Notes under the pieces: generated by a model
The model's input: the letters and a program-made list of their open reading frames with translations, nothing else
What the model was told of the DNA's origin: nothing
The model's database searches: none
DNA from: Mogibacterium sp.
GTDB lineage: Bacteria; Bacillota; Clostridia; Peptostreptococcales; Anaerovoracaceae
DNA length: 64,000 nucleotides
Direction: 5' to 3'
NCBI GenBank assembly: GCA_012840975.1
Contig: DUVP01000007.1
Coordinates: 1-64,000, forward strand
Position numbers and translations under genes: made by a program
Shown: piece after piece, positions 1 to 58,940 of the stretch
Numbering within the stretch: the stretch's first letter is position 1
Layout: each line of letters begins with the position of its first letter

Positions 1-1608
1 CTCAGGCTCAGGCAGGAATATCTGATGGTTGCGGCAGGTATTGAGAATATTATAAGAGATTATAAGGCTCTTTACGGAACCGACCAGTGGTTGAAGTTTC
101 CGGAACGGATCAGTATTCATATCAACGATACCCACCCGACACTCTGTATTCCGGAACTTATACGGGTGTTGCTTGATCAGGAAAATCTGGACTGGGACGA
201 CGCATGGAAAATTACCCTGCAAACCGTTTCATTCACAAATCATACTGTTCTGCCGGAAGCTATGGAAAGCTGGCCGATTAATCACTTCAAGAAACTGCTG
301 CCCCGTGTCTATATGATAATTGAGGAAATTGATCGCCGTTTCCGGGAAAAAATGGAAAAGTCCGGCTGTGCGGATTACGAAACATTACGCAGAACATCCA
401 TTTTATGGGATAACACGATTCGTATGACAAACCTTTCGATTATAGGCAGCCACTCTGTAAACGGTGTTGCCGCCCTGCATACCGATATTTTAAAGAAGGA
501 CGTGTTCTGCGATTTTCATACAATCTATCCGGACCGTTTCAACAATAAGACTAACGGAGTCAGTCACAGAAGATTTATGATTCAATCTAACCCGGCTCTT
601 GCAAGACTTATCACTGATGTAATCGGGGACGAATGGCTCCGCGACTTCAATCAGATTGAAAAGCTTCTGGATTATAAAAACGACTCTTATATGGCAGCAC
701 GCCTCAGGCAGGTTAAAAAAGAAAATAAGCATAGACTTGCGGAATATGTGAAAAAGACCTCCGGAATATCCGTAGATCCGGACTCCGTTTTTGATATTCA
801 AGTTAAACGTATTCACGCATATAAACGCCAGCTTTTGAATGTATTTAAGATTTTGGATCTTTATAATCGAATTAAACAAAACCCGGATCTTGATATCCGT
901 CCTTATACATTTTTCTTTGCCGGAAAGGCTGCACAGGGATATGCTTTTGCGAAAGAAGTCGTTCATCTGATCAATATAGTGGCAAGCCTGGTCAACAACG
1001 ATCCCGTTGTCAGCAAAAAAATCAAGGTGGTATTTGTGGAGAACTTCTGTGTTTCCAATGCTCAGCTGATTTATCCGGCCGCTGATATTTCCGAACAGAT
1101 TTCTACCGCCGGAAAAGAAGCCAGCGGAACCGGAAATATGAAATTTATGATGAACGGTGCTATCACGCTGGGCACACTGGACGGTGCCAACGTGGAAATC
1201 CTTATGCAGGTCGGAAAGGAAAACATGGAAATTTTCGGGCTCACTTCCGAAGAAACATCGCGTTTTACAATGTGTGGAGGATATAACGCCAAAGAAACCG
1301 CTGAAGCGGACTTCAGACTGAAACGGATTACTTCACAACTGGTTGACGGAACTTTGAAGGATAAACACAGAGAATCCATAGGGTTCTGGGGCATTTATGA
1401 TAATCTTCTGAGTAGGGGAGATGAGTATTTTGTATTAAAAGATTTTGACGCTTATATCAAAGCGTTTGAAAATTTAGATCGAATTTACGGAGATGAGGGC
1501 AGATGGGGTGCCATGTCTCTGACCAATATTGCTAAATCCGCTTTTTTCTCAAGCGACCGTACGGTTCGTGAATATGCGGATGAAATCTGGCATGTGGAGC
1601 ATCGATAA
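1..1608 (+). CDS. glgP: Glycogen/starch/maltodextrin phosphorylase, C-terminal part (5' truncated by window edge)
   Basis: Frame open from base 1 (LRLRQEYLMVAAG...); conserved phosphorylase segments incl. IHINDTHPTL, KRIHAYKRQLLN and PLP-site region EASGTGNMKFMMNGA. Confidence 0.97.
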   Translation, partial: LRLRQEYLMVAAGIENIIRDYKALYGTDQWLKFPERISIHINDTHPTLCIPELIRVLLDQENLDWDDAWKITLQTVSFTNHTVLPEAMESWPINHFKKLLPRVYMIIEEIDRRFREKMEKSGCADYETLRRTSILWDNTIRMTNLSIIGSHSVNGVAALHTDILKKDVFCDFHTIYPDRFNNKTNGVSHRRFMIQSNPALARLITDVIGDEWLRDFNQIEKLLDYKNDSYMAARLRQVKKENKHRLAEYVKKTSGISVDPDSVFDIQVKRIHAYKRQLLNVFKILDLYNRIKQNPDLDIRPYTFFFAGKAAQGYAFAKEVVHLINIVASLVNNDPVVSKKIKVVFVENFCVSNAQLIYPAADISEQISTAGKEASGTGNMKFMMNGAITLGTLDGANVEILMQVGKENMEIFGLTSEETSRFTMCGGYNAKETAEADFRLKRITSQLVDGTLKDKHRESIGFWGIYDNLLSRGDEYFVLKDFDAYIKAFENLDRIYGDEGRWGAMSLTNIAKSAFFSSDRTVREYADEIWHVEHR

Positions 1609-1633
1609 CATGCAGTAAAGGGAGGTGCAGCAA

Positions 1634-2767
1634 ATGTCTGGAAAGAAATGTATTGCAATGCTTCTTGCAGGTGGACAGGGCAGCCGTCTCGGCGCTCTGA
1701 CAAAAAATATTGCCAAACCGGCGGTTTCTTTCGCCGGAAAGTACCGGATTATAGATTTCAGTCTTTCCAATTGTGTTAATTCGGCAATCGATACCGTCGG
1801 TGTTTTAACACAGTACAAACCGCTAGTGCTTAATCATTACATCGGAACCGGTGAGGCCTGGGATCTCGACTCTGCGCACGGAGGAGCTCATATTCTTCCG
1901 CCGTACGCGACGGAAACCGGCGGCAGCTGGTATCTGGGAACGGCCAACGCTATTTACAACAATATAGATTTTGTGGATATTTATGATCCTGAACATGTGC
2001 TGATACTTTCCGGAGATCATCTTTACAAAATGAACTACGCAGACATGCTTGAAGAGCATATCGAGCATGACGCGGATCTTACGATTTCCGTATATAATGT
2101 TTCTCTCAAAGAAGCAAGTCGATTCGGCATTATGTCTGTAAACGAGGAGGGTCGTATCTATAAATTTTCGGAAAAACCGAAGAAACCGGACAGCACTCTG
2201 GCCTCAATGGGAATTTATATTTTCAAGTGGTCGATTCTTCGCGAGGCACTGCTGAAAGATCATGAAACAGAAGGGTCCGATCACGATTTCGGAAAAAATA
2301 TTATTCCTGCATTACTGAAAGAAAAAAAGCGTCTGTTTCCATATTATTTTGAGGGTTACTGGAAAGATATCGGAACAATAGAAAGCTATTATGAGGCGCA
2401 AATGGAAATGATTACCAAGGATATCGGACGTCTGATGTTCCGGGAAGGAAGTCAGATTTACTCCAATTCCAACCTATATCCTGCCCACTATATCGGGAAA
2501 AAAGGAAAGGTCAAAACATCCCTGGTCTGTAACGGGTGTGTAGTCGACGGAACTGTGACCCAGTCCAGTCTGGCTTTGTCCGTAATTATCGGAGAGGGAT
2601 CCGTAATCAAAGATTCCGTGCTTCTGCCGGGCGTGCAGATCGGAAAAAACTGCAAAATTACAAAAGCGATTGTTAACGAAGGCGTATCTGTCAAAGACGG
2701 TTCTGTAATCAAAGATCCGGACGGTGGAATTGTAGTAGTAAGCGCCGACAGTGAATGGGCGAGGTGA
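1634..2767 (+). CDS. glgC: Glucose-1-phosphate adenylyltransferase
   Basis: [16 protein letters not shown] nucleotidyltransferase motif, C-terminal left-handed beta-helix hexapeptides; start moved to ATG 1634 because GGAGG lies at 1621-1625 and overlaps the predicted GTG. Confidence 0.95.
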
Positions 2768-2772
2768 TAATT

Positions 2773-3795
2773 ATGAAAAAAACCATTGGACTTATTTCCG
2801 CAAATTATGTCATCGAAGAAATCAATTCGAATATACAGGAGCGTGGTCTGGCAGCCCTGCCTTTCGGTAGTAGGTACCGGTTAATCGATTTTCCGCTTTC
2901 GAACCTGAAAAATTCCGGTGTCGGCTGTGTCGGCATCATTATGCCATTTAACAACCGTGCGCTGATTGACCATATCGGAGCCGGAAAAGCATGGGGATTC
3001 GGACGCAAAACAAACAGCCTGTTTATGCTGCCGGGAAGTGTTTACGGCAGAAAAAACAACGCAGATAAGTTTCTTTTAAGAGATATTATTTTAAATTTCC
3101 GTTTTATCGATTACGATAACGCGGACTATGTAATCCTGTGCGGAGTAAATAAAATCTTTAACATGAATTTTCAGCCTATGATCAAGCAGCATGAACAAAG
3201 CGGTAACGATCTGACTGTTGCTTATACGGTCAAGGACGGAAAGGATATTCCTCTCGATTGTGCAATCATCAATCAGTCTTTTCTGATAGACATTGCCTCC
3301 TGGTACGGAAATCTGGATTTTCTCGGACTCATGAAAATCATTGAAGATTATCTAGACGATGCGGACATCGGCAGATATGAATTTGACAGTGAAGTAATCA
3401 TCATCGAGAATATGCACGACTATCTGAAAGGTAATCTTTCTTTGCTGGAGAACGATGTTCGGGAGAATATCTTCAACCCGGACAACCAGATCTACACAAA
3501 TGTACAAGACAGAGCGCCGACATTTTACGCTCCTTCTTCGAAGGTTCATAACTCACTGATTGCAGCAGGCTGCATGATCGAAGGGGAAGTGGAAAACAGC
3601 GTGATCTTCAGAAGCTCACACATTCATAAAGGCGCGAAGGTAAAAAACTCCGTGCTGATGCAAGACTGCAACGTCAGCGAGGGAGCTTATCTGAATAACT
3701 TTATTTGTGATAAAAGAGTACATGTTATGAAAAATGTACGTGTGGAAGGCACGATGGAGACTCCATACTATGTGCAGAAAGGACAGATTATTTGA
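2773..3795 (+). CDS. glgD: Glucose-1-phosphate adenylyltransferase regulatory subunit GlgD
   Basis: GlgC-like paralogue with degenerate N-terminal motif directly following glgC; ATG 2773 preceded by GAGGTGATAATT. Confidence 0.93.
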   Translation: MKKTIGLISANYVIEEINSNIQERGLAALPFGSRYRLIDFPLSNLKNSGVGCVGIIMPFNNRALIDHIGAGKAWGFGRKTNSLFMLPGSVYGRKNNADKFLLRDIILNFRFIDYDNADYVILCGVNKIFNMNFQPMIKQHEQSGNDLTVAYTVKDGKDIPLDCAIINQSFLIDIASWYGNLDFLGLMKIIEDYLDDADIGRYEFDSEVIIIENMHDYLKGNLSLLENDVRENIFNPDNQIYTNVQDRAPTFYAPSSKVHNSLIAAGCMIEGEVENSVIFRSSHIHKGAKVKNSVLMQDCNVSEGAYLNNFICDKRVHVMKNVRVEGTMETPYYVQKGQII

Positions 3796-5210
3796 CAAAA
3801 ATATTATTTACAGCCTTTGAGGCAGCTCCTTTTGTAAAAACCGGCGGTTTAGGGGATGTGGCAGGATCGCTTCCTGCAGCAGTTTCCTCTTCAGTTTTTG
3901 ATGTCCGGGTTGTATTGCCGAAGCTTTCCGCTATTCCTGAAAGATATGTGAAGAAGATGGAATTTGTAACCACTTTTTCAGTACCTTTAGGATGGCGTAA
4001 TCAGTACTGCGGTCTGTTTCGTTTAAAGCATAAAGGCATTTTATATTACTTTTTAGATAACGAATATTACTTTAAGCGGGATAAGGTATACGGGGAGTTC
4101 GATGATGGTGAACGAGTCGCCTTTTTCTCCAAAGCCGTTCTGGAATTCATCCTGTCTGCAGAAGAATTTATTCCGGATATTATACACTGCAATGACTGGC
4201 ACACCGCACTTGTTCCTGTCCTGTTAAGAGAACAGTATATGAAAATTCCGGAATTTACACGAATCAAAACTGTATTTACGATCCATAACCTGAAATTTCA
4301 GGGGAAATTTTCAAAATTTGTGATCGGAGACATTTGTGGTCTTGCCAAAACACCGGCAGCCGCTCAACTTTTAAGTGATAAGCATACGGCAAACTATCTT
4401 CAGGGTGCGGTAATTTATTGCGATCGGATTACAACAGTCAGTCCGACCTATGCGGAAGAAATCCGTATGCCGTATTACGGAGAAGGCTTAGATAGACTCT
4501 TTAACAGGCGAAAAGATGATTTGTCCGGAATTTTAAACGGAATAGATTACAGAGTCTGGAATCCGGCAAAAGATAAGAAAATACCGGTGAACTATGATGC
4601 TTCGACTCTTGCAAAAAAGCATGAGAACAAGCTTGTTTTGCAAAAGGAACTGGGACTTGAGGTCAAAAAAGAGATTCCGCTTTTTATAATCATCAGTCGT
4701 CTGACTGAGCAAAAAGGCCTGGATCTGGTCAACTACCTGCTGCCGAAATTTCAGCAGCGTTCCATGCAGCTTGCTGTTTTAGGCACCGGTGATAAAAAAT
4801 ATGAGAACACCTTTTTACATTACGCCGGTATTGATTCAAAAAAATTTTCCGCAACTATTAGCTTTAATAACGACCTTGCTCATCGTATGTATGCCGGTGC
4901 TGACGTGCTCCTGATGCCTTCCAGATTTGAGCCGTGCGGTCTTACACAGATGATCGCTATGCGTTACGGAACTCTTCCTCTTGTGCGTGAGACGGGAGGA
5001 CTGAAGGATACTGTTCATGTAAATAACGGCTTCTCTTTCCTTACCTTTAATGCACAGGATATGCTCTATGCTGTTGATTGTGCTTTAGACATATGGTTCA
5101 ATCGTAAACGTCGATGGAGAACCATGCAAAAAGAAGCGATGGCAGAAGATTTTTCCTGGAAAGCCTCTGCCAGAGAATACCGAAAGTTATATAGTGAACT
5201 CATGACATAA
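3792..5210 (+). CDS. glgA: Glycogen synthase (ADP-glucose type, GT5)
   Basis: N-terminal KTGGLGDVAGSLP motif, C-terminal PSRFEPCGLTQMIAMRYG; TTG start overlaps glgD stop by 4 nt. Confidence 0.95.
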   Translation: MTKILFTAFEAAPFVKTGGLGDVAGSLPAAVSSSVFDVRVVLPKLSAIPERYVKKMEFVTTFSVPLGWRNQYCGLFRLKHKGILYYFLDNEYYFKRDKVYGEFDDGERVAFFSKAVLEFILSAEEFIPDIIHCNDWHTALVPVLLREQYMKIPEFTRIKTVFTIHNLKFQGKFSKFVIGDICGLAKTPAAAQLLSDKHTANYLQGAVIYCDRITTVSPTYAEEIRMPYYGEGLDRLFNRRKDDLSGILNGIDYRVWNPAKDKKIPVNYDASTLAKKHENKLVLQKELGLEVKKEIPLFIIISRLTEQKGLDLVNYLLPKFQQRSMQLAVLGTGDKKYENTFLHYAGIDSKKFSATISFNNDLAHRMYAGADVLLMPSRFEPCGLTQMIAMRYGTLPLVRETGGLKDTVHVNNGFSFLTFNAQDMLYAVDCALDIWFNRKRRWRTMQKEAMAEDFSWKASAREYRKLYSELMT

Positions 5211-5251
5211 GCTGTTCTGATCACATAACACTTTGAAAAGAGGTAATCAGT

Positions 5252-8200
5252 ATGCAGATTTATCATAATTCTCAAAATCTCAGATATCGTCAACCGTTCG
5301 GTGCGGTGACCTGTGGAGAAACAGTTACATTAAATATATATGCGCCGGGATGTGAGGGGGCTTCTGTCCGTTTCTGGCAGGATCAAAGCGGTGAAACCAT
5401 GATTCCGATGAACAGAAGTGCTGCCCTGTTTTCGGCAAAGATTAAGATGCCGGAGAATCCTTGTATTCTCTGGTATTTTTTTGTTTTAAATTACGGTAAT
5501 AAGGTGGTCTGCTATGGAAACAACCCGGAATCCTTAGGAGGCGAAGGTTGTGTATATGAAGGCAGTCAGCCTCCGTCATTTCAAATTACGGTACACAATT
5601 CTTTTAAGACACCTTCCTGGTACAAGAACGGATTAGTCTATCAGATCTTTCCGGATCGATTTGCCCGGGGTGCGGATTTCGGAGAAAGAAAAGCCGCAGC
5701 ACAGCTTCCTGAAGGATGGCAGGGAGCTTCCCGTTTTTTCGAGGAAGACTGGCATACTCTTCCGTATTACATAAAAAATGATGACGGAGCAGTCACGGAT
5801 TGGCAGTTTTTCGGTGGAACGTTAAACGGCATTCGGGAAAAAATTCCTTATCTGAAATCATTGGGCGTTACCGCTCTTTACTTGAATCCGATTTTCCGGG
5901 CCTCATCAAATCATCGTTATGATACTGCTGACTACATGCAGGTGGATCCTCTCTTAGGAGATAACGAAATATTTCAAAGGCTGGCCGAAGAATGCCGCAA
6001 ACACGATATTCGTATTATTCTTGATGGCGTCTTCAGTCATACCGGAGCGGACAGCCTGTACTTTGATAAATTTGAAAATTATAAAAACTTTGTAATAAAA
6101 AAGCCGGAGGATCCTAAAGAAACCGGAGCCTGGCTTAGTGAAGACTCCAAATACAGAAACTGGTATCGTTTCAAGGAGGAGGCTCCCGGCTACGAGTGCT
6201 GGTGGGGTGTAACGGATCTTCCGAATGTCGAAGAGATGGATCCTTCTTATGACAGGTATATCTGTGGTCCGGAAGGAGTTTTGGAAAACTGGATGGATCT
6301 GGGAGCTTCCGGATTCCGCCTGGATGTCGCGGATGAACTGCCGGATTCCTTCATCAGAAATATTCGTGACACGTTAAAGAGAAAAGATTCCGATAATCTT
6401 TTGATCGGAGAAGTCTGGGAAGATGCCAGCAACAAATACAGCTACGGCCAACTGCGTCGTTACTTTGCGGGTGACGAGCTTGACGGAACCATGAACTATC
6501 CGTTCCGAGACAATGCAATCAACTATTGCATCGGAAAAGAAAGTGCGGAAATGTTCTGCAGAAAAATGCGCAGTCTGCAGGAAAATTATCCTGCCGAGGC
6601 ATTTTACGGTTCTTTGAATATTGTCGGCGGGCATGATTGCGAACGGATACTGTCCGTGCTGGGAAGCTATACTCGTGCAAAAGAAGACCATTATAGACAT
6701 GACGGACGTTTTATACCACAAGGTGCAGCAATTGATCTGAATGGTGATCAGTATGCACAGGCAAAAGCCAGATTGAAAATGCTCTCCTCTCTGCAGTATA
6801 CAATGCCGGGTGTTCCTTGCGTCTATTATGGAGATGAAGTCGGTGTGCAGGGAAGCAAAGATCCGGATAACCGCCGTACCTATCCATGGGAACGGGAGGA
6901 TCAGGACCTCCTCTACCATTACCGGATGCTGGGCCTAATCTATCAATCGCATCCTGTGTTAAAGGACGGAGCCTTTGAAATACTGGATAAGGAAGGTTGT
7001 CTCTTTGTGATCCGTGCAAACGAAGAAGAAACAATTCTTACCATCGTGAATCCGACCTTTGAGAAAAAGGTTTTTTCCGAAACATTTAAAACGCTGTTCA
7101 GCAGCACTTATAAAAACAGAAAATTCGTATACGGATTGGAACTTCTGAAGTCGGAAGAAATCACGATAACGGAAACTGCACTGGAAACGTCCGTAGAACC
7201 GTTATCCTCTCAAATTATTCTGTTAAAAGAAGAAATCCCTGAGCGGCTTGTTCTGCCGGCAGCTTCCGGAATTTTATGCCACTTGAGCTCCCTGCCTGAA
7301 ATTGAAAACAAAGAGAATCCGAACCAAACGGACAAGACCGACAAACCGGACAATCAGATTCGTTTCGCCGGTGCTCTCGGCAAGCGCGGCCGTGCCTTTG
7401 TCGACTGGCTTGCGGAAAGCGGCTTTAAACTTTGGCAGATTCTTCCTGTCAATCCGGCAGGTGCCGGTAATTCGCCTTACTTCAGTCCTTGTGTTTTTGC
7501 CGGAGAAACACGCTATATTGATCCTGATGAACTGCCGGATGAGAACGGTTTTGATGAATTTTGCTTTGACAATCAATATTGGCTTTCCGACTGGGCCGAA
7601 TATGTTATTGAAAACAACTACATGAACTATGTAACCTGCCATAAAAACGGCTTGAAAGAAACAATGCTTCATGATATCCGGTATGATCAGTATGTATTCT
7701 TCACTCAGTTAAAGAAGCTGAAAGAATACGCGAACAGCAAAGGCATTGCGCTTATCGGAGATCTGGCGATTTATGCTACTCCGCAGAGTGCGGATTTAAA
7801 AGCTCATCCTGAATATTTTCAGGTAGATGAAAATGGCCGACTGCTGAATACAGGAGGAGTTCCGCCGGATTATTTTTCCGAAACAGGACAGAATTGGTCG
7901 AATCCTTTATATAACTGGAAAGCAATGGAAAAAGATGACTATGAATGGTGGTATCAAAGATTCCGCCTGGCAATAAAATGTTTTGATTATATCCGGTTGG
8001 ATCATTTCCGCAGCTTTTCCGCATACTACGCAATTCCGGAGGGAGAGCTCCCTAAAGAGGGATCCTGGCAACAGGGTCCGGGCATGAAGTTCTTTTACCG
8101 TATGAAAGAACGGCTCAAAGATCTCCCGATTATTGCCGAAGACCTGGGACTGTTGGACAGCGATGTTTTCAATCTTCTGAAACTAAGCGGTTTTCCCGGA

Positions 8201-8524
8201 ATGAATATCTGGCAGTTCAGTGCGGAAGAAATGAAAGCAATGAATAAAAAGGAGGCACAAAGCCGCGTGTTCTATTCCGGAACTCACGATAACCAAACGC
8301 TTGTCGGATGGTGTGCTGATAATTATCCGGAAGCGGATCCGAAAGAAAAAGCTCATGCAATTATAGAAGAGCTTATGAATTCCGAAGCTCCCTGGGTTAT
8401 CTTCCAGCTACAGGATATTCTTCTTCTGGATGATTCCGCACGAATTAATATTCCGGGCACAGTCGGTAACAACTGGCTTTGGCATTGCACAGAGCCTCTG
8501 CCGGAGATTCGGATGTTCCGTTGA
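5252..8524 (+). CDS. Fused GH13 alpha-amylase/glycogen-debranching-type domain + GH77 4-alpha-glucanotransferase (MalQ-like)
   Basis: N-terminal GH13 motifs (DGVFSHTG, GFRLDVADELP, GGHDCERI) followed in the same ORF by MalQ motifs (FKLWQILPVNPAGAGNSPY, FDYIRLDHFRSFSAYYAIP, IIAEDLGLL). Confidence 0.93.
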   Translation: MQIYHNSQNLRYRQPFGAVTCGETVTLNIYAPGCEGASVRFWQDQSGETMIPMNRSAALFSAKIKMPENPCILWYFFVLNYGNKVVCYGNNPESLGGEGCVYEGSQPPSFQITVHNSFKTPSWYKNGLVYQIFPDRFARGADFGERKAAAQLPEGWQGASRFFEEDWHTLPYYIKNDDGAVTDWQFFGGTLNGIREKIPYLKSLGVTALYLNPIFRASSNHRYDTADYMQVDPLLGDNEIFQRLAEECRKHDIRIILDGVFSHTGADSLYFDKFENYKNFVIKKPEDPKETGAWLSEDSKYRNWYRFKEEAPGYECWWGVTDLPNVEEMDPSYDRYICGPEGVLENWMDLGASGFRLDVADELPDSFIRNIRDTLKRKDSDNLLIGEVWEDASNKYSYGQLRRYFAGDELDGTMNYPFRDNAINYCIGKESAEMFCRKMRSLQENYPAEAFYGSLNIVGGHDCERILSVLGSYTRAKEDHYRHDGRFIPQGAAIDLNGDQYAQAKARLKMLSSLQYTMPGVPCVYYGDEVGVQGSKDPDNRRTYPWEREDQDLLYHYRMLGLIYQSHPVLKDGAFEILDKEGCLFVIRANEEETILTIVNPTFEKKVFSETFKTLFSSTYKNRKFVYGLELLKSEEITITETALETSVEPLSSQIILLKEEIPERLVLPAASGILCHLSSLPEIENKENPNQTDKTDKPDNQIRFAGALGKRGRAFVDWLAESGFKLWQILPVNPAGAGNSPYFSPCVFAGETRYIDPDELPDENGFDEFCFDNQYWLSDWAEYVIENNYMNYVTCHKNGLKETMLHDIRYDQYVFFTQLKKLKEYANSKGIALIGDLAIYATPQSADLKAHPEYFQVDENGRLLNTGGVPPDYFSETGQNWSNPLYNWKAMEKDDYEWWYQRFRLAIKCFDYIRLDHFRSFSAYYAIPEGELPKEGSWQQGPGMKFFYRMKERLKDLPIIAEDLGLLDSDVFNLLKLSGFPGMNIWQFSAEEMKAMNKKEAQSRVFYSGTHDNQTLVGWCADNYPEADPKEKAHAIIEELMNSEAPWVIFQLQDILLLDDSARINIPGTVGNNWLWHCTEPLPEIRMFR

Positions 8525-47990: not shown

Positions 47991-49085
47991 ATGAAAGAAA
48001 CCTCGATAAGAAAAAAACTGGAAGAAATATTATATAAGCACATACCGAGCCAGGAACTAAGCGATGATGAAAAATATTTGTATCTTATTTCGATTATTGC
48101 TTGTAGTTTTGCAATGTCTATGCAGTTGCTCCTTTGGGTTTTTTATCTTTTCGCTGGAATTTCACCTTTAGTTAATATCTATTTTTCCGGGTTGCTGTTT
48201 TTGGTATTGCTTGTGTGGCTGGTTCTAAAACACCGTTACCAACTGTTCGGACTTTTGCTTTCCGGAATAGTTATAATTGAAACCTTGGTATCAGCAGTCT
48301 TTATCGGCACTAACAATTTCGTAATAGTTTACCTGTTTGTTGCGCTTATGATGCAGATGATAATCCCCTATACAAGCGTTCGTATTCGCACTTTTGTAGT
48401 AATTTTGCTGGGGATCAGCATGTATATTCTCGTTATTATTAATCATAATATGATACCGACTTGGAACCTTGGAGAAGCCAATACTACACTTGCTTTTTTT
48501 AATATTAATATAGCGTTTTTCGGTACTATCATCCAGCTTACTGTAGGAAACTTTATCCGGGATGTTATTGTAAAAGCCAACCGAAAGAAATTGGAAGAAA
48601 GCAAAAATGAGGCTAACACAGATCCTTTGACCGGTCTTTTCAACCGCAGATATGCGAACGCATTTTTTAAACAGCTGAGCATCAATAAGGTTGAGCAGGA
48701 CTGGTGCGTCTCAATGATGGATATTGATGATTTTAAAGTGTTGAATGATACTTACGGACATAAGGTCGGTGATGAAGTATTGATCTTTATTAGCGATTTT
48801 ATTAGAAAAAACCTGCGCAAAAGAGACCTTGTGTTTCGCTGGGGCGGGGAAGAGTTTTTAATTTTGCTAAAAGATGTCGAAGTGCCTATCGCCTTTCGTA
48901 TATTAGACAAGCTGCGCAGCAGACTTGAACTGGAGAATATTGAAACACATGATAAAATTTTAAATGTGACTGTAACAATAGGTGTCTGTTCTCTGGATAT
49001 TCAACATGTGGAACAGAGTATAGATACATCTGATCAACTTATGTACAAGGGAAAAGCTTTAGGAAAGAATATGGTAGTTATGTAA
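47991..49085 (+). CDS. Membrane diguanylate cyclase (GGEEF, with I-site)
   Basis: DPLTGLFNRRYA; RKRD-LVFRW-GGEEF (RxxD I-site five residues before the active-site motif). Confidence 0.93.
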   Translation: MKETSIRKKLEEILYKHIPSQELSDDEKYLYLISIIACSFAMSMQLLLWVFYLFAGISPLVNIYFSGLLFLVLLVWLVLKHRYQLFGLLLSGIVIIETLVSAVFIGTNNFVIVYLFVALMMQMIIPYTSVRIRTFVVILLGISMYILVIINHNMIPTWNLGEANTTLAFFNINIAFFGTIIQLTVGNFIRDVIVKANRKKLEESKNEANTDPLTGLFNRRYANAFFKQLSINKVEQDWCVSMMDIDDFKVLNDTYGHKVGDEVLIFISDFIRKNLRKRDLVFRWGGEEFLILLKDVEVPIAFRILDKLRSRLELENIETHDKILNVTVTIGVCSLDIQHVEQSIDTSDQLMYKGKALGKNMVVM

Positions 49086-49187
49086 ATATCAAAACAGGTT
49101 TTCTCTTTACCAAATACCTTTGATCTCTGCACGTATTTCTCGAAGATTTTAGATATTCTGTTTGTAAGCTGAATGGAGGATAAAAAC

Positions 49188-52100
49188 ATGAAATATGACA
49201 CCATCATATCATTAATATTTTATATTTGCGGTTGTTTTTATCTGATTTATGGCTCAGCTATAGTAGTTACCAGTGCAAGAAACGATATTTCCAAGCTGTT
49301 TTTGTTTTTAACAAGCTCGCTGGCAATCTGGTCATTTGCGTATTCCATTTCAAACTCAGTATCCACGGCGGAAGCCAGTGCTTTCTGGAGGTCTTTTTCT
49401 GTTTTGGGCTGGGGGAGTTTCAATAGCTTTTTGCTTCATTTCATAACGCTCCTCACAAAAACTGAAACTCGATTAAGTTTGAGAAGTAAACTTGTGGTAT
49501 TTTATTTACCCTCAGTTATTAATGTAATTTTATTCGGACCGTTTGGCGTCTTCCTGGAAAAACAATATGTCATGGTGCAGACCGACTTCGGCTGGATAAA
49601 CATTGCCCCTATGTATCCTGCGAAAATATGGCTCATCTTATATTTCATAGTATTTTCTGTTGCAAGTCTTATATTCCTCGTTAAATGGTGGAAAAAGATT
49701 AGATTTTACACCTCTCTTGAGAAACGGGAGGCAAAATTCTTTTTAGCATCTATATTGGTTTTTTTCTTAATAGAGATTGTAGTAGATTTCCTGCCTGATA
49801 TCTCAAGAAAAATACCATTTCCTAAAATGCCTGTTGTGTTGCTTTTAATTCCGACAATATTGCTCTTTTCATTATTGAAAAAATCCGAGCTTATTAAAAG
49901 AACCAGGGATATAAATTTCTTTCCTGAGAGCTCAAAAAGCATAACGACTGAAGTTCGGTTGCGTTTGTTCAATACGGCAGCAACTATATTTGTAATAGGT
50001 AGTGCACTATACTTTTTAATAGGGTATTTTGGCATGAAAAAAGCATTAGGTTATGAACTTCTTTTCTCCGCAGCTTTATTGCTGATGGGAATAACGTTAA
50101 GAGTATTACCTCGCATAACGCAGAATCAAACTATTCAGAATACCGCATTTGCGATAATATCCACCTTTGGTTTTATGCTTTTTATGATAAAAGATTCCGA
50201 TACAGGTGCATTAACAGTATGGGCTTCATATATTCTGTTTTTTATCCTTACTGTTGTTATGGGCAACCCGATCCATATTTATGGCTTTGCTACAATAAGT
50301 ATCATCGCCCAGGTAGTTTTATGGATAGTTCGTCCGCAGGTCTCTGTCATCATCGATATAAATGAGTATATAGGAAGAATATTTATTATTATTCTCTCTT
50401 TTATTGCAGTGCGTTATCTGACAGACGAATATGCCTCAAAGATAGATGGATATCAAGGGCTTTTAAGTGAACAGGAAGCTCTTGAGAGGATTTCTTCCAG
50501 CTTTATTTCAATCGATAGCGAAAACGCTAAAGAGAAAATCGATGAAATGATGGAAATGGCTGCCGAAATACTTAAGTTTAAGAATGCAATTTTAGTGAGA
50601 TTCAGTGAAGAATATGAAAATGCTACAATTCTTAATATGTATGCAAAAGATATTGAGAACGTGCCATCTATATATCAATCCGGCAATAAAATGAAGATAT
50701 CGGATTTCCCTTTGTTTAAGTTTTTGATCGATCGAAACACATTTGTAATATGTGAAGACATCGCAAATATTTCTTTTGATGAAGATGGGCGGCAAAAAGA
50801 ATTTTTTATGGATAGAGGAGTAAAATCTTTTTTTGCAATGCCGATAATCGCTGATAATAAAATAGATGGAGTATTTATAGTTGAATACAATGACAGACTT
50901 GATACAGGACTCGCACAGAGTCGATTAAACCTTTTGCAGATTATTGCAAATATGCTGGGAGATGCAAATAAAAAGCTTTTTTATGAAGAAAAGCTATATA
51001 ATTTCGCCTATTTTGATGAAGCTACAAAACTGGCGAACAGGAATATGCTTAAGAAAAAGCTGGGAGAAATTATAAAAAACGGAAAAGGAAGAGAGAAAAT
51101 AGCAATTATTGACTTTGAACTTGAGAATCTGAGAATGATCAATGATACATTCGGTCAAAGCGTAGGAGATAAGATCGTGATGAGATCAGTGGAGATTCTC
51201 AAAAATCAGTTTGATGAATGCTGTTATATTTCACGGCCGGGCATAAGGGAGTTTATCGTTGTTATGCCTGATGTGAAAAACAGGCAACAGATAGAACATG
51301 CCCTGAAGAGACTGATGAATTCTTTTTCCCGTCCTTTACTAACCGATAATAGGAGGAATAGAAGCATTATTCGTTACTGTCTGTATGGGCATATCCATGT
51401 ATCCGGATGATGGGAGAGACGTTGACACTCTTTTAAAGAAGGCCGATATGGCAAGATTTGAAGCGAAAAATACTTATGAGAAGATTGTATTCTTTACAGA
51501 ACAAATGGAAAGTTATATTGCGGAAAATACTTTGTTTACAAACCGGCTCTTTAACTCGCTGGAAAATGAAGAGTTTTTCTTAGAATTTCAGCCCCAAATC
51601 AGCTGTGATACAGGCAAAACCATCGGCATTGAAGCTTTACTGAGATGGACCAGCGACGGTGAGCGGAGAGTCTCACCTGATAGATTTATTCCTATACTTG
51701 AGCAAACAGGGTTAATTTGCGATGTGGGTCTTTGGGTGTTGAAACAGGCAATCCAAGAGCATATCAGGCTTGTTGCAAAGGGATTACCACCTCTGCGTAT
51801 TGCTGTGAACTTATCGATTGTACAATTACAGAGAGAAAATTTTGTTTACGATTTTGTAAAAATCATAGAAGAAAGCGGAATATCTCCGAAATATATCGAG
51901 TTGGAAATTACAGAAAGCTCGTTCTTTGAAAATCCCAAGGATATAATTGAGAAAATTCGCAAATTGAAGAAGTTAGGAGTAACTATTGCTATAGATGATT
52001 TCGGCAAAGGTTATTCATCGCTAAATCGATTGAAGAGTGTGCCTTTTGATAGAATAAAAATTGACAAAGAAATCATAGACTATATGGATTTTGAAGGAAA

Positions 52101-52314
52101 AGAAGCTCCAATAACTAAAAGCATTATTTTATTAGCGAAGGCTTATAGTGCGAATATTACAGTTGAAGGTGTGGAAACAAAAGAGCAGGCGGATTTTTTG
52201 AAAAGCATGTCCTGCAATGAGATACAAGGGTTTTATTTTTCAAAGCCGCTATCATCGAAACTGCTGGAAGATTTTCTCAAAAATGAATCATGCAGATATT
52301 GTCCGGTGAATTAG
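49188..52314 (+). pseudogene. 7TM/GAF-degenerate GGDEF-EAL phosphodiesterase, split by +1 frameshift near 51351-51356
   Basis: ORF 49188-51410 (TM, GAF-like, degenerate GGDEF ISRPGIREF) and ORF 51385-52314 (end of GGDEF + full EAL) join as GGIEALFVTVCMGISMYPDDGRDVDTLLKKAD in the +1 frame; EAL motifs EALLRW, ELEITES, DDFGKGYSSL, EGVET intact. Confidence 0.8.
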
Positions 52315-52325
52315 GAGAGAAAGTA

Positions 52326-53213
52326 TTGATTAGTAAGTATTCATATGGGCATACTGTAACCAAGCAAATTATTAATGCTTTAAAGGCACATGTAGTACGA
52401 TCCAGGACTGCAATTGCAGCAGTTTTCCTGGGTGTTTATAATGAATCTGAATTTGATGTAGAGAGACTGCCGGAGACATTAGAGAAAATAACTGTATTTT
52501 TGAAGAATGAAACCAGAAATACTGATATGGTTTTCAGTTTTGCCGGTAAGCTTAAATGGCTTATTATTTTATCTCAAAGCGGTGAAAGAGAGGCTACTGC
52601 ATTTCTTCGACGCTTGTACGTATCGGTAAAAAATAATGATATCCTTGATTTGGAAAATCAAGAAATTCTATTTTCCGCCAGTGTAGCGGAAATAGGCAAC
52701 GATGAGGGATCTTTTGAAAAACTGGTAACTGAAGGCACCCTGGCTTTGACAGAAAGTTTAAGTAAAGGACCTGAACAGATAGAATACGTGACTACCTTTA
52801 AAAAAAGACCCCTGGAAACAGTTAAGGTCAGTATTCTGGAAGAAAATGATGTTTTCCGCAAGGTGCTATATAGAACAATAGAGAATTTAAACCTGAATAA
52901 TTTTGAAACGGAAATAAAAGAATTTCAGGACGGTTATGAATTTCTGGAATCCGACTGGTATTTTTCAAGCCATACTCATCTGATTATCATGAATGATATC
53001 CTCCCAAGACAAAGCGGCTTAGATGTGTTACATAAAATTCGCATGTTACCTAATAATAAAAAGTTTATTGTCTTTATGATGACTAAAAGAAGCTCGGAAG
53101 AAGACATGATTTATGCGTATGAAAGCGGTGCGGATAATTATTTTATTAAACCATTTAATCTGCGTCTGTTGGAAGTGGAAATTAAAAGGACCCTTGAAAG
53201 ATTATGGACATAA
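52326..53213 (+). CDS. Degenerate GGDEF domain (I-site retained) fused to C-terminal receiver-like domain; candidate c-di-GMP receptor
   Basis: RNTD-MVFSF-AGKLKW aligns with RxxD-x5-GGDEF; receiver fold VSILEEND...LIIMNDILPRQSG...FMMTKRSSEED...GADNYFIKPF; TTG start with AGGAGA upstream. Confidence 0.75.
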   Translation: MISKYSYGHTVTKQIINALKAHVVRSRTAIAAVFLGVYNESEFDVERLPETLEKITVFLKNETRNTDMVFSFAGKLKWLIILSQSGEREATAFLRRLYVSVKNNDILDLENQEILFSASVAEIGNDEGSFEKLVTEGTLALTESLSKGPEQIEYVTTFKKRPLETVKVSILEENDVFRKVLYRTIENLNLNNFETEIKEFQDGYEFLESDWYFSSHTHLIIMNDILPRQSGLDVLHKIRMLPNNKKFIVFMMTKRSSEEDMIYAYESGADNYFIKPFNLRLLEVEIKRTLERLWT

Positions 53214-54250
53214 TAAAGATATCAATTGACACTTTAATCAAAGGCATTGGAGTTTTATCTTTTATACTCATACTTTTAAGTGTTCATATAGTAATTAAAA
53301 GCAGTAAAGAAAAAGCTGAGGCCGGAAAAATAAAGGCATATATACAAAACAAACAAGATCTCTGGTATCAGTATTTCAATGATGAAATCGTCTTACCCGT
53401 GGAGCTTATCCCCAATAACGATATTGAAATTAAAGCTACAGAGGAGATTTTTCTTGCCTATATAAAAAACATATCTAATTCAACCATAGAAGAGAAGATC
53501 CGGAAGTTTTCCAATCAGTATTTAAGACAATATTATTCGGGTTTCCTTTTGAGCAGAAAATGGAGCTTAAGAATGAATGCCCTGTACCGGATCATTGATT
53601 TTAAAATAGATTCCTTAGCTCCTGAATGCAAGAAACTGGAAAAAAGAACTAAATTATCTCCGGAGGAGCATTTTCAGCTGATGATAATTTATTCTATGTT
53701 TAATGAAACAGATTTTATAAAAGAATTTGCGAATTTATCAGTCAGGCTCTCCGAATATGAATATAAAAAATTATTAGTCGGGTTTAAGTCGGAAATTCTT
53801 GAACATCTGATGCATCAGATGAAAGAACTTCCTATGATATACAGGCATTATTTTATTGATATTTTAGGAATCAGACGAGAACTGGGTTTTTTGCCGTTTT
53901 TAGAGAAGAATCTCAGCCATAATAATACGGAAATCCGTATTCGCTCCTTAAAAGCCATTAATGAAATAGGTATTGTCTCTAACCTGGATAAGTATAAACC
54001 TTTTTTAAAAGCCTCCCAATGGGAAGAACGCTTAATGCTGGCTAAGATTTTAGGAGCTTTTCCTTTAGAACAGGTATATACGTATTTAGAGGAATTGTTA
54101 CAGGATGAAAACTGGTGGGTCAGATCCCAAGCTGCACAAACTATTGGAAAGAGTAAAGACGGCAAGTCCAGGCTGAAGACATTCATTGCAACCGCTCAAG
54201 ATCAATATGCCATTGACATGGCTCGCGAAGTACTGGGAGGAGAGTATTGA
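53204..54250 (+). CDS. Membrane-anchored HEAT-repeat protein
   Basis: N-terminal TM; HEAT-like repeats NTEIRIRSLKAINEIG..., NWWVRSQAAQTIGK. Confidence 0.7.
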   Translation: MDIIKISIDTLIKGIGVLSFILILLSVHIVIKSSKEKAEAGKIKAYIQNKQDLWYQYFNDEIVLPVELIPNNDIEIKATEEIFLAYIKNISNSTIEEKIRKFSNQYLRQYYSGFLLSRKWSLRMNALYRIIDFKIDSLAPECKKLEKRTKLSPEEHFQLMIIYSMFNETDFIKEFANLSVRLSEYEYKKLLVGFKSEILEHLMHQMKELPMIYRHYFIDILGIRRELGFLPFLEKNLSHNNTEIRIRSLKAINEIGIVSNLDKYKPFLKASQWEERLMLAKILGAFPLEQVYTYLEELLQDENWWVRSQAAQTIGKSKDGKSRLKTFIATAQDQYAIDMAREVLGGEY

Positions 54251-54253
54251 TTA

Positions 54254-55697
54254 ATGAGTACAGTAGTAAATTATCTTATAATGTTTTTGCGGCTTTATAT
54301 TGTTATACATGCTGGTTATCATTACAACTTATACCGGTATGCTGATATTCGCATTTGTTGAACTGCGCAAGCAATATAAACTGGATAAGAACGCATCTGA
54401 CGATGATTATATAGATGCATTTTATTATAAACCTCTTTCTGTCATAATACCTGCATACAATGAGGAAGTCGGCATTGTGGACAGTGTTCGGTCTGCACTG
54501 AACCTGAAGTATCCTCAAACCGAGCTGATTATAGTCAACGATGGCTCTAAAGACCGGACTCAAGAGGTTGTAATAGAGCAATTTCAGATGAAAAAGATTC
54601 CAAAGGTAATCAAAAAACAAATCCGATGCAAACCGATTCTCCAGGTTTACCAATCTGAAATACATCACAATTTATATTTGATAGAAAAAGAGAATGGCGG
54701 AAAAGCCGATGCCCTGAATGCGGGTATTAACTTTGCCAGATATCCTTATTTTTGTTCTATTGACGGTGACTCTATTTTAGACGAAAAATCTCTGTTGCGA
54801 GTCATGAAACCGATCATTATGTCAAACGAAGAGGTTATTGCCGCAGGCGGAAATGTTCGTATAGCCAACGGGCTTGATGTCCACTGGGGTTCAGTATATC
54901 AGAAAGACTTACCTGACCGCCCTTTGATTTTAATGCAAATAATTGAATATACAAGAGCTTTCATGATGGGCAGAATCTCTTTAGCTAAATTTAATTTGAT
55001 TCTCGTTATCTCCGGAGCTTTCAGTGTGTTTGCAAAAAAATGGGTTGTCGAAGCGGGAGGATATTCTGTTCAGACGATAGGTGAAGATATGGAATTAATT
55101 GTTAAGCTTCACCGGTTTCTGTACGATAATAAATTAAATAAAAGAATTGAATTTGTTCCTGATCCGGTATGCTGGACGGAAGCTCCGGAAACTTTTAGTG
55201 TATTAAGAAAACAACGTAGAAGATGGCATCAGGGGTTAATAGAGAGCTTGCTAAAGCACAAAAAAATGACTCTAAACCCAAGATACGGCAAAATCGGCAT
55301 GATTTCTTTTCCTTACTTCTGGGTGGTAGAATGTTTCGGGCCGCTTATTGAACTGGGCGGTTATATATATATTGTTGTGGCATTCTTTTTAGGTAAATTA
55401 TATTTCGAATTTGCCATAATGCTAGCCTTGCTGTTTATTCTGTATGGCTCTGTTCTTTCCGCTTTTGCCATCCTGATGGAGACCTGGAGTGTGAATGTTT
55501 ATGCGGGGATAAGGAATTTTTTCAGATTGATTATTGTATCTTTAACGGAAGTTTTCTGGTTCAGGCCTCTGACCCTTGTGTGGAGATGTGAGGCATTTAT
55601 ACATGTTATTTTGGGACGAAAAAGCTGGGGCAGTATGGATAGGGTGGGTCTCTCAAAAAAACCTGCTCAGGATGAAAGGAGCAATCAATCCAAATGA
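54254..55697 (+). CDS. Membrane processive GT2 glycosyltransferase (apparent N-terminal +1 frameshift near 54299)
   Basis: Main ORF 54300-55697: VIIPAYNEE, VNDGSKDRT, SIDGDSILD, GEDMEL, QRRRWHQG (QxxRW). SD-preceded ATG 54254 encodes MSTVVNYLIMFLRLY in the other frame. Confidence 0.85.
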
Positions 55698-58600
55698 AAC
55701 GTATTTATACAATACTCTTATGCCTGTTAATATTGATATCCTTGCCTGTTGTTATCTGGTATCTGGAACCCGGCAAGGAATGCCGCATGGCGATAATCGA
55801 CAAAACCGTGCCTGATGAAACCTATCGCGGACATAACGGCATTGTTTTTCTGTTAAATCATTTAAAGTATAAAAAACAATCAAAAGATTTATATGATTTA
55901 AGAGAGGATTATTTTGGTTTTTCCCCGAATGAAAAAGAAAAAAGCTACAAGTTAAAACCTCTGCCGGCAAATTATGATGATTACGATATTATTTACTTAG
56001 CGGATAGCTACGGTGTTTATGAAGGGGATTTACCGTGGAAAGTGAAAGAAAACGAGGGGTCTGTGCCGAGAAAAATCTATGGAGGTCTGGAAAAGGAAGA
56101 GTGGCTTAATATCCATAATAGACTGGCTAAGGAAAACAGAAGCCTGTTCATTGCGGAACACAATGCATTTGCCACTCCCACCAAAAAAGAAGTAAGAGAA
56201 AGTATTACGAATTATCTGGGTGTTAACTGGTCCGGATGGAAAGGACGATATTTTGATGAGCTGGATTTTAATAAGAATAAAAAAATTCCGCAATGGATAA
56301 AAAACAAGTTTGGCGAATCATGGGACTATAAAGGATATGGGTTTATTCTGGTAAATGATATAGATTCCCGAGTCCTTGTTCTGGAAAAATCCGAACATGT
56401 TTCAGATAAAAATATCAGTCTGTCATTTACCCGGGAGGGAGAAGATTTCTTCGGGCTTAAAAAAAGCTCTCATTACAATCACTGGTTTGATATTATAACT
56501 CCGAAACAAGGCTCAACCGTGTTGGCCAACTATAATTTGAATTTAACCGAAAGAGGAAAAGAGCTTTTGCTGGAAAACGGGATTACTACCGAGTTTGCCG
56601 CAGTTGTAAAAACGGAACAGGGATCTTCTTCCAGCTATTATTTTGCAGGAGATTACAACAGTATAGACAAAGTACCGGCCCTGTATAAATTTAAAGGATT
56701 GCAAAAATTATACAGTTTTGTAGAAATGAATTCAGACAGTGCTTTTTACTGGTCGGCATATTTTCCTATGATGGAAAAAATTCTGGATAATTACTATAAT
56801 CCTTCGGAGAAAGATATGGGCTTAGAAGAAAAAGAAAAAAATCCGTATGATGCCAGAATAAAGGGTAATAGTTTCGAAATCTTAATAGACGGCAAATGGG
56901 AACCTATAGCAATAAAAGGCGTCAATATGGGTATGGGGAAACCGGGAGCTTTTCCGGGAGAGGCGGCAATAACTGAAGATGAATATTATCGCTGGTTTGA
57001 GCAAATCGGTGAAATGAATGCCAACGTTATACGTGTATATACGCTTCATCCGCCTGGATTCTATAATTCACTGCTCAGATATAACGAAACTCATGATAAA
57101 AAAATATATGTGATGCACGGCGTCTGGATAAACGAAGAGGAGCTGGAGGCTTCACAGGATGTTTTTGATAAAAAAACTCTGGCGGATTTTCAGCAGGAAA
57201 TGAAAACCATAACTGATGTAATACATGGAAATAAAGTTGTTGATGCCAGACCGGGGCATGCATCGGGAGCTTATAAAGCAGATGTCTCACAGTATGTAAT
57301 CGCTTGGATTTTAGGCATAGAGTGGGATCCTTATATGGTGGAGAATACAAATCATATTCATTTCTCTATCGGAGAATACAAAGGTACTTTCTTTGAAACA
57401 AGAGGTGCAAATCCTTTTGAGTACTGGCTTGCACAGCAGATGGATACCATAGTTAAATATGAGAAAAAACATTATGACTACCTAAGGCCTGTCAGCTTTA
57501 CTAATTGGCCTACAACAGATATTCTGGAGCATCCTGCTAATTTCCAGGATAATGAGGATCTGGTTGGTGTAGATCCTAATGTTATATACACAAAAGGTGA
57601 AATGGATTCGGTCGGGCAATTTGCCTCATACCATATTTATCCGTATTATCCGGATTTTCTCAATTTTGAAAAAAAATATTTAGATTATGTTGACCATAGA
57701 GGGCAGAAAAATAATTATGCAGGTTATTTAAATCATTTGAAAAGTGTTCATAGACTGCCTATTTTAGTAGCTGAGTTCGGAATACCGGCTTCACGAGGTC
57801 TCACACATGAAAATCCTTTTGGATGGAATCAGGGCTTCAAATCTGAAAAAGAACAGGGAGAAATTGTGAGTCGTCTTTATGAGGATATTTTAGAGGAAGA
57901 TATGCTCGGCGGGTTAATATTTACATGGCAAGATGAGTGGTTTAAAAGAACATGGAACACAATGGACTATGATAATCCGGACAGAAGACCTTTCTGGTCC
58001 AACGCTCAGACAAACGAACAGCAATACGGATTGTTGAGTTTTGACAGACATAAAATAAAGGTCGACGGAGACATAAAAGATTGGGAAACGGAACCTCTGT
58101 ATAAAAAGAACGGAAAAGCCATGAAGGGTTTATATGTGGATCATGATGAGAGATATTTATACATCAGATTGGATTATTCCGGTACAGACAAAGCTTATCC
58201 GCTTATTTTGCTGGATGTTGTGCCTGATCAAGGGAATTCTTTTATAAAAGAAAAAAAGAAGTTGAAGTTTTCCAACGGAGTGGATTTTATCATAAAATTA
58301 AACAAAAAAAATCCTAAGATCCTTATTGATCAATACTATGACTTTTATACGTATATGTATGCTTATCATTTAAAACTGATAGAAAAACCGAAGAAGGATC
58401 CGCATAAGAACAGCGGGGTATTTTCACAGATCCATTATGTGATCAGCAGAGAATATAGATCGGAAAACGGTAAAATACTGATGCCGTTCAGCAGTTATGA
58501 AGCAGGAAAGCTGAGAAAAGGAAATGCTGATCCGGACTCAAAAAATTATGATTCCCTTGCTGATTTTTATATAAACGATGATGGTGGACTGGAATTAAGG

Positions 58601-58879
58601 ATTCCTTGGTTGTTGATTCAGTCTAGAGATCCGAGTAAGAAAGAATTTATCGGAAATATCTACAAAGATGGTATTGAAGCAAGTAAACTTATCGATGAAA
58701 TCTATATTGGTGTTTTGTATGTAGATGATAATGGCACTGTATTAGATTCATTCCCGGGTATAGAAAACAACGTTTTAAATCCTTTGAAAGCATATACCTG
58801 GGATGAGTGGGATATACCTAAATCCAAAGAACGATTGAAGCAATCCTACTATATAATACAGGACTTGTTTGCCGATTAA
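55694..58879 (+). CDS. Large membrane-anchored TIM-barrel (GH-like) protein with C-terminal CBM9-like domain
   Basis: N-terminal TM; central WEPIAIKGVNMGMGKPGAFPGE...NVIRVYTLHPPGFY...PILVAEFGIPASRG; C-terminal KVDGDIKDWE...GLYVDHDERYLYIRLDY. Confidence 0.7.
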   Translation: MKRIYTILLCLLILISLPVVIWYLEPGKECRMAIIDKTVPDETYRGHNGIVFLLNHLKYKKQSKDLYDLREDYFGFSPNEKEKSYKLKPLPANYDDYDIIYLADSYGVYEGDLPWKVKENEGSVPRKIYGGLEKEEWLNIHNRLAKENRSLFIAEHNAFATPTKKEVRESITNYLGVNWSGWKGRYFDELDFNKNKKIPQWIKNKFGESWDYKGYGFILVNDIDSRVLVLEKSEHVSDKNISLSFTREGEDFFGLKKSSHYNHWFDIITPKQGSTVLANYNLNLTERGKELLLENGITTEFAAVVKTEQGSSSSYYFAGDYNSIDKVPALYKFKGLQKLYSFVEMNSDSAFYWSAYFPMMEKILDNYYNPSEKDMGLEEKEKNPYDARIKGNSFEILIDGKWEPIAIKGVNMGMGKPGAFPGEAAITEDEYYRWFEQIGEMNANVIRVYTLHPPGFYNSLLRYNETHDKKIYVMHGVWINEEELEASQDVFDKKTLADFQQEMKTITDVIHGNKVVDARPGHASGAYKADVSQYVIAWILGIEWDPYMVENTNHIHFSIGEYKGTFFETRGANPFEYWLAQQMDTIVKYEKKHYDYLRPVSFTNWPTTDILEHPANFQDNEDLVGVDPNVIYTKGEMDSVGQFASYHIYPYYPDFLNFEKKYLDYVDHRGQKNNYAGYLNHLKSVHRLPILVAEFGIPASRGLTHENPFGWNQGFKSEKEQGEIVSRLYEDILEEDMLGGLIFTWQDEWFKRTWNTMDYDNPDRRPFWSNAQTNEQQYGLLSFDRHKIKVDGDIKDWETEPLYKKNGKAMKGLYVDHDERYLYIRLDYSGTDKAYPLILLDVVPDQGNSFIKEKKKLKFSNGVDFIIKLNKKNPKILIDQYYDFYTYMYAYHLKLIEKPKKDPHKNSGVFSQIHYVISREYRSENGKILMPFSSYEAGKLRKGNADPDSKNYDSLADFYINDDGGLELRIPWLLIQSRDPSKKEFIGNIYKDGIEASKLIDEIYIGVLYVDDNGTVLDSFPGIENNVLNPLKAYTWDEWDIPKSKERLKQSYYIIQDLFAD

Positions 58880-58902: not shown

Positions 58903-58940
58903 AAAAGGCCTCCGATTTTTGTGACCGGAGGCCTTTTATA
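58903..58940 (+). terminator. Rho-independent terminator ending the c-di-GMP/EPS operon
   Basis: AAAAGGCCTCCG ... CGGAGGCCTTTT. Confidence 0.85.

Follow-up and report, generated by a model that had tools for sequence, protein, structure and literature searches.

Several exopolysaccharide (EPS) machines are controlled by cyclic di-GMP (c-di-GMP) through a degenerate GGDEF domain that has kept its I-site. In PleD, this site is formed by R359, D362, and R390, plus R313 from the partner (PMC7288161), and in PelD it comprises R367, D370, and R402 (PMC8461298). BcsE, the I-site receptor of Escherichia coli cellulose secretion, consists of a degenerate receiver (REC) followed by a degenerate GGDEF domain and binds dimeric c-di-GMP (PMC7439463). 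PssE of the Listeria pssA-E operon binds c-di-GMP with a Kd of 0.79 µM and is essential for EPS. Here, we describe a locus at positions 47991 to 58879 of a 64,000-nucleotide stretch from Mogibacterium sp. (GenBank assembly GCA_012840975.1, contig DUVP01000007.1), which is referred to below as the window. We argue that this locus is probably a synthase-dependent EPS operon that is switched on by c-di-GMP via a protein composed of a dead GGDEF domain and a dead receiver.

Two other described gene sets bear on the remaining parts of the locus. NELoc-2 of Clostridium perfringens (CP4_0460-0468) tabulates a core of TIM-like, HEAT, and GT2 genes whose function is unexplained (PMC2879425), and genes for CotH, a polyphosphate polymerase, and DUF4956 are also found with Gram-positive Pel clusters (PMC7112168). 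The clostridial cellulose synthase locus ccsZABHI combines a GT2 with a glycoside hydrolase (PMC7710045).

Results

The protein on which our reading turns is a candidate c-di-GMP receptor of 307 amino acids. Its N-terminal domain has no match in Pfam. A profile built from 32 orthologues recovers GGDEF domains of solved structure, the best being E. coli DosC (E = 6.4e-11), and the AlphaFold model of the protein (predicted local distance difference test [pLDDT] score, 87.7) finds CheY receivers and the DosC GGDEF domain in Foldseek. Conservation was ranked over 155 columns in 30 representative orthologues clustered at 70% identity, a clustering that is the only correction for phylogeny in these ranks. 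R37, R76, R108, and D79 hold ranks 1, 2, 3, and 6, and the columns that once held the GGDEF motif, now scrambled, are among the most variable. The window protein reads RNTD-MVFSF-AGKLK, with the RxxD placed five residues before the degenerate motif; RxxD is kept in 45 of 51 aligned regulators. The distance from R76 to R108 is 32 residues, compared with 31 between R359 and R390 of PleD, a difference consistent with a single-residue insertion in the decayed hairpin of the pseudo-GGDEF domain. Since R37 sits where the first helix ends, we take it, by position only, to be the equivalent of PleD R313. With that assumption, R37, R76, R108, and D79 appear to match R313, R359, R390, and D362 of PleD, respectively. 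A catalytic site that is lost and a product-binding site that is kept are as expected for a receptor, and the degenerate GGDEF domain with a receptor-type I-site that a sequence-only reading of this DNA had proposed is thus strengthened by the conservation of all four I-site positions alongside the decay of the active site.

The C-terminal half of the protein is a receiver, as that reading had also stated, but the loss of its phosphoacceptor aspartate had gone unnoticed: the position, four residues before the conserved proline of the receiver, is N235, which makes this half a pseudo-receiver. Among the 45 regulators of the window type that carry RxxD, the position holds Asn in 42, Ser in two, and Asp in a single protein from Evansella (locus L095). 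The aspartate is present in all 10 relatives of other types (seven Hpt-type and three Rossellomorea-type regulators); the Rossellomorea-type proteins have no I-site, whereas several of the Hpt type carry a full GGDEF motif together with an I-site. Relatives without a window-type receptor either keep the phosphoacceptor or have no regulator. Because Asn replaces Asp specifically where the I-site is all that survives of the cyclase domain, this clade appears to have abandoned phosphorylation. The Evansella protein has an N-terminal extension, an intact I-site, the aspartate, and a GGDEF domain that still scores in Pfam, and it branches first within the receptor clade of the GT2 tree described below. 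By these features, it would be an intermediate between a phosphorylatable regulator and the window-type receptor.

We compared loci picked by similarity to the TIM protein. Within the order, a TIM-like protein occurs in 30 of 297 genomes, and none was found in the nine congeners examined. A scan of species genomes gave 80 loci, mostly from Bacilli (Siminovitchia, Lysinibacillus, Psychrobacillus, Paenibacillus, Sporosarcina, Planococcus, and others), and the closest TIM relatives are in three clostridial metagenome-assembled genomes (74 to 77% identity). The order regulator-HEAT-GT2-TIM on one strand recurs in 44 loci, mainly from Bacilli. The genes upstream of this set vary. A diguanylate cyclase (DGC) gene and a GGDEF-EAL gene precede it in clostridial loci L067 and L096, as in the window; in L093, the GGDEF-EAL gene is preceded by another GGDEF protein. 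In Bacilli loci L061, L068, and L071 to L073, a GGDEF gene of about 300 codons lies directly upstream, in several cases overlapping or abutting the receptor gene, and reads SGDEF in those inspected. Since the DGC and GGDEF-EAL genes are confined to close clostridial relatives, with another GGDEF gene or none in Bacilli, the conserved unit is the last four genes. Non-conservation of the neighborhood, which would have spoken against the sequence-only reading, was therefore not what we found, and our search of the open-access literature returned neither an exact match to a characterized EPS operon nor any description of the four-gene operon.

A tree of 78 GT2 sequences grouped the window with L093 and L096 (support, 100/100) and nested this group in the clade of pseudo-GGDEF/receiver operons (47 rows; 100/97), which otherwise contains Bacilli and one record named Arthrobacter. 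Two rows of this clade are labeled as lacking a regulator: L065 is a truncated locus, and the regulator of L096 was missed on spacing and is visible on inspection. A group of its own (100/100) comprises the 10 loci of the CotH type, in which the TIM gene lies upstream of HEAT. A search of 198 further host-family genomes with the 307-amino-acid protein found no full-length receptor and returned only ordinary receivers. Because the window GT2 nests among Bacilli and the sampled host family has no receptor, a few clostridia are likely to have received the four-gene core by horizontal transfer from a Bacilli-type donor, which is the simplest reading of the sequences.

Several other loci deserve mention. 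Genes sized and ordered like VTC, DUF4956, and CotH stand before TIM-HEAT-GT2 in L046 to L051, L053, L055, L057, and L058, as in NELoc-2, with Pfam confirmation in L050; an EAL protein lies downstream in L046, L047, and L057. In the Planococcus group (L105, L106, L114, L115, L117, L118, L120, L126, and L134), HEAT-GT2 is accompanied by a convergent TIM gene and no adjacent regulator, and GDSL-like or secreted proteins are nearby in some. Inspection of the neighbors of the orphan long TIM genes (L083, L122, L124, and L137) revealed no shared partner.

The HEAT gene, which overlaps the receptor gene by 10 nucleotides, is fused to GT2 in three loci (L041, L054, and L056). Given these fusions and the single N-terminal hydrophobic segment of the HEAT protein, it very likely sits on the synthase, which suggests that it may couple the receptor to GT2. 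At these loci (L041, 1235-9361; L054, 3276-11011; L056, 3189-10941), the fusion of 966 to 1,004 amino acids stands beside the TIM protein and a protein of 633 to 674 amino acids. By Pfam, the latter in L041 comprises an ODP-type beta-lactamase, a GGDEF, and a receiver domain, and its counterparts in L054 and L056 look alike; no I-site was seen in the three. This ODP domain may point to oxygen sensing as a further input.

The synthase contains the motifs NDGSKD, DGDS, GEDM, and QRRRW, so that the processive D,D,D,QxxRW signature expected from the sequence-only reading is present, and, again as expected, Pfam finds no PilZ domain in it; nor was one found in the host genome, which is 81% complete. 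The closest curated family is the PNAG synthase PgaC/IcaA, with a score of 141 bits that is below the TIGR03937 cutoff of 422. The TIM protein matched nothing in Pfam, NCBIfam, or the sequences of solved structures. In its model (pLDDT, 83.4, with low confidence at residues 745 to 778), the barrel is nearest to GH157 (best match; E = 1.6e-10), GH2, and GH5 enzymes, which agrees with the membrane-anchored, glycoside hydrolase-like protein proposed earlier. E543 and E694 are conserved in homologues and are predicted to be the catalytic glutamate pair of a clan GH-A-type barrel, and the protein would trim or hold the polymer.

TABLE 1 Features of the locus, in positions of the window
Feature	Position	Strand	Basis or remarks
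Membrane diguanylate cyclase, 364 amino acids	47991-49085	+	PF00990, E 3.9e-38; several hydrophobic segments
5' part of GGDEF-EAL phosphodiesterase gene (7TM-like, GAF, degenerate GGDEF)	49173-51410	+	PF16927, PF01590, PF00990
3' part of GGDEF-EAL gene, EAL domain	51385-52314	+	PF00563, E 5.4e-69
Candidate c-di-GMP receptor, pseudo-GGDEF then pseudo-receiver, 307 amino acids, no transmembrane segment	52290-53213	+	Profile, model, Foldseek
R37, candidate secondary I-site arginine	52398-52400	+	30/30 representatives, rank 1 of 155
R76-N-T-D79, primary I-site RxxD (putative)	52515-52526	+	R76 30/30, D79 28/30
R108, putative third I-site residue (PleD R390-like)	52611-52613	+	30/30, rank 3 of 155
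N235 in place of receiver phosphoacceptor Asp	52992-52994	+	Asn in 28/30 representatives, 44/57 of all regulators
Membrane-anchored HEAT-repeat protein, proposed coupler	53204-54250	+	PF13646, E 1.5e-10; one N-terminal hydrophobic segment
Processive-type GT2 polysaccharide synthase, no PilZ	54300-55697	+	PF00535, PF13641, PF13632
Membrane-anchored extracytoplasmic TIM protein, 1,061 amino acids	55694-58879	+	N-terminal domain, GH-A-type TIM barrel, C-terminal beta-sandwich
Intrinsic terminator	58903-58937	+	12-bp hairpin, T run in 3' arm, 11-nucleotide loop; read from sequence

Seven open reading frames (ORFs), all on the plus strand and separated by gaps of 87, -26, -25, -10, 49, and -4 nucleotides, make up the locus, with Pfam domains running from GGDEF through 7TM/GAF/GGDEF, EAL, receiver, and HEAT to GT2. 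The single strand and tight or overlapping spacing agree with the earlier description; its count of six genes does not, since the GGDEF-EAL gene is split in two. The DGC looks active, as had been claimed, with its motifs intact (RKRDLVFRWGGEEF at residue 276, which comprises the RKRD I-site, LVFRW, and GGEEF, and a DIDDF metal motif), and DGC-like genes hold the equivalent place in L067 and L096. In the GGDEF-EAL gene, all EAL catalytic motifs are present (EALLR, VNLS, ELEITE, IDDFG, IKIDK, and EGVE), so the intact EAL domain reported earlier stands; the accompanying GGDEF is degenerate (PGIREF), and a frameshift divides the gene into two ORFs. By tblastn with intact homologues, the frame switches at about 51350-51355, and the gene is unbroken in three close relatives (1,032 to 1,033 amino acids in L093 and L096 and 1,038 in L067). 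The split at 51340-51390 reflects either a genuine lesion or a misassembly.

The terminator that had been read as closing the gene set was found again, as a hairpin with a T run. It had no entry in our terminator scanner, whose limit is exceeded by the loop, and both promoter and terminator scans performed near chance level. No c-di-GMP riboswitch was found in the window and six related loci; genome-wide searches also gave no matches, but control searches were equally silent. Gene sizes had raised the suspicion of a second operon copy at 25-8524, which was rejected when its sequences were read as a glycogen gene set; the 1,090-codon ORF at 5252-8524 resembles a fusion of an alpha-amylase-type domain with a 4-alpha-glucanotransferase-type domain.

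Discussion

We assign a probability of about 0.7 to the reading that this is a synthase-dependent EPS operon switched on by c-di-GMP through the dead-GGDEF/dead-receiver protein. The dedicated DGC would make c-di-GMP, and the adjacent GGDEF-EAL protein, whose copy in the window may be broken, would remove it. The 307-amino-acid protein would bind c-di-GMP at its I-site and relay its state to HEAT, a membrane-anchored protein that would touch the cytoplasmic face of GT2 and thereby permit polymerization and export; outside, the membrane-anchored TIM protein would trim or hold the polymer, as BcsZ, CcsZ, or YdaJ is thought to do. The pseudo-GGDEF I-site logic of PelD and YdaK, which the sequence-only reading had invoked, is supported by conservation of both the I-site and the operon.

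Several points weigh against this account. c-di-GMP binding and the polymer itself are predictions from sequences and models, and the conservation ranks of the I-site are uncorrected for phylogeny past the 70% identity clustering. D79 is lost in the Kurthia orthologues. A neighboring DGC is missing from most Bacilli loci. Planococcus relatives keep HEAT-GT2 without an adjacent regulator, so the receptor is not universal, and the GGDEF-EAL gene is frameshifted in this genome. In favor of the account, GGDEF genes are present in 20 of the 20 related Bacilli genomes tested, with 5 to 31 GGDEF matches each.

Some of these points would also fit other explanations. Both domains of the 307-amino-acid protein are catalytically dead, and dead GGDEF and receiver domains can be protein adaptors, so the protein might be a scaffold whose arginines contact a partner (a kinase, the DGC, or HEAT) rather than c-di-GMP, a view to which the Kurthia orthologues lend weight. 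The conserved positions, however, coincide exactly with the four I-site contacts already known, the spaced R390 equivalent among them, while the rest of the domain drifts, and we consider a scaffold unlikely. The frame switch in the GGDEF-EAL gene, together with the absence of the system from nine congeners, could mark the start of its loss, such that the island is decaying and non-functional in this organism. The remaining genes, though, are all intact and keep their conserved motifs, the EAL part retains an ORF with its own ATG, and the break could be an assembly error, the genome being a draft in 37 contigs; decay thus seems improbable to us.

The product could also be a glycan linked to the cell wall or S-layer rather than a secreted EPS, with the TIM protein as its transferase or hydrolase. 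The donors are thick-walled Gram-positive bacteria, and the TIM protein is membrane anchored, with a large N-terminal domain that has no family match, but the processive QRRRW motif of GT2, its nearest relatives (PgaC/IcaA and cellulose synthases), and a gene set with no lipid-carrier or ligase gene make a wall glycan quite unlikely. We therefore retain the c-di-GMP-controlled EPS operon as the preferred reading.

The input modules seen beside the core (Hpt-REC-GGDEF-REC, a plain phosphorylatable receiver, ODP-GGDEF-REC, VTC-DUF4956-CotH, or none) allow a tentative history, which we hold at somewhat less than even odds. The HEAT-GT2-TIM core would have had its input exchanged repeatedly, with HEAT as the common adaptor, and the receptor would have been made from a phosphorelay protein by killing the cyclase and the phosphoacceptor and keeping the I-site, the Evansella regulator being a surviving intermediate. 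The same synthase with phosphorylation-ready and c-di-GMP-type inputs offers a natural comparison. What c-di-GMP controls in most of these Bacilli genera is, as far as we are aware, not known, and the operon offers a specific receptor and output candidate in cultivable Lysinibacillus, Psychrobacillus, and Siminovitchia. The four-gene set is present in more than 40 sampled genomes; as its TIM-HEAT-GT2 core was already tabulated in NELoc-2, it also provides a functional lead for those unexplained genes.

The likeness to NELoc-2 extends to a TIM-like protein (685 amino acids), a HEAT protein (377 amino acids), and a GT2 (466 amino acids), matched by order, size, and annotation, with homology judged in related loci and not on the CP4 proteins themselves. 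Homologous TIM, HEAT, and GT2 genes are adjacent in the window. In NELoc-2, VTC, DUF4956, and CotH genes, which are absent from the window, replace the c-di-GMP parts, and the TIM protein is shorter, without the N-terminal 400 amino acids. Like ccsZABHI, the window locus pairs a GT2 with a glycoside hydrolase-like protein in Clostridia, but it has none of the PilZ domain of CcsA, the CBM11-like CcsB, or the MBOAT/DHHW acetylation genes, and ccsZABHI was ruled out as its identity.

None of the BcsE, PelD, PssE, and YdaK systems shares the parts found here. Listeria pssA-E and Bacillus subtilis ydaJKLMN are likewise Firmicute EPS operons that join a pseudo-GGDEF kind of c-di-GMP receptor to a polysaccharide synthase. 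Pss has a BcsB-like subunit, whereas the window has a HEAT protein and no BcsB-like Pfam match in its seven ORFs, which upholds the different accessory set proposed in the sequence-only reading; YdaK is membrane bound, whereas the candidate receptor here is soluble and carries a pseudo-receiver. PelD also controls an EPS machine without PilZ through a degenerate-GGDEF I-site, but it has four transmembrane segments and a GAF domain and serves the GT4 polymerase PelF, in contrast to the soluble protein and GT2 described here. BcsE differs in that its domains are in the reverse order, the pseudo-GGDEF domain being N-terminal and the pseudo-receiver C-terminal in the window protein, which also has no N-terminal RecA-like domain and no Pfam BcsE-family match; BcsR/Q/F partners are absent here, and the synthase lacks PilZ. 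Even so, BcsE pairs a degenerate receiver in tandem with a degenerate GGDEF domain, has an I-site, and is accessory to a GT2 synthase, and by this analogy it appears to be a closer design analogue of the candidate receptor than either PelD or YdaK.

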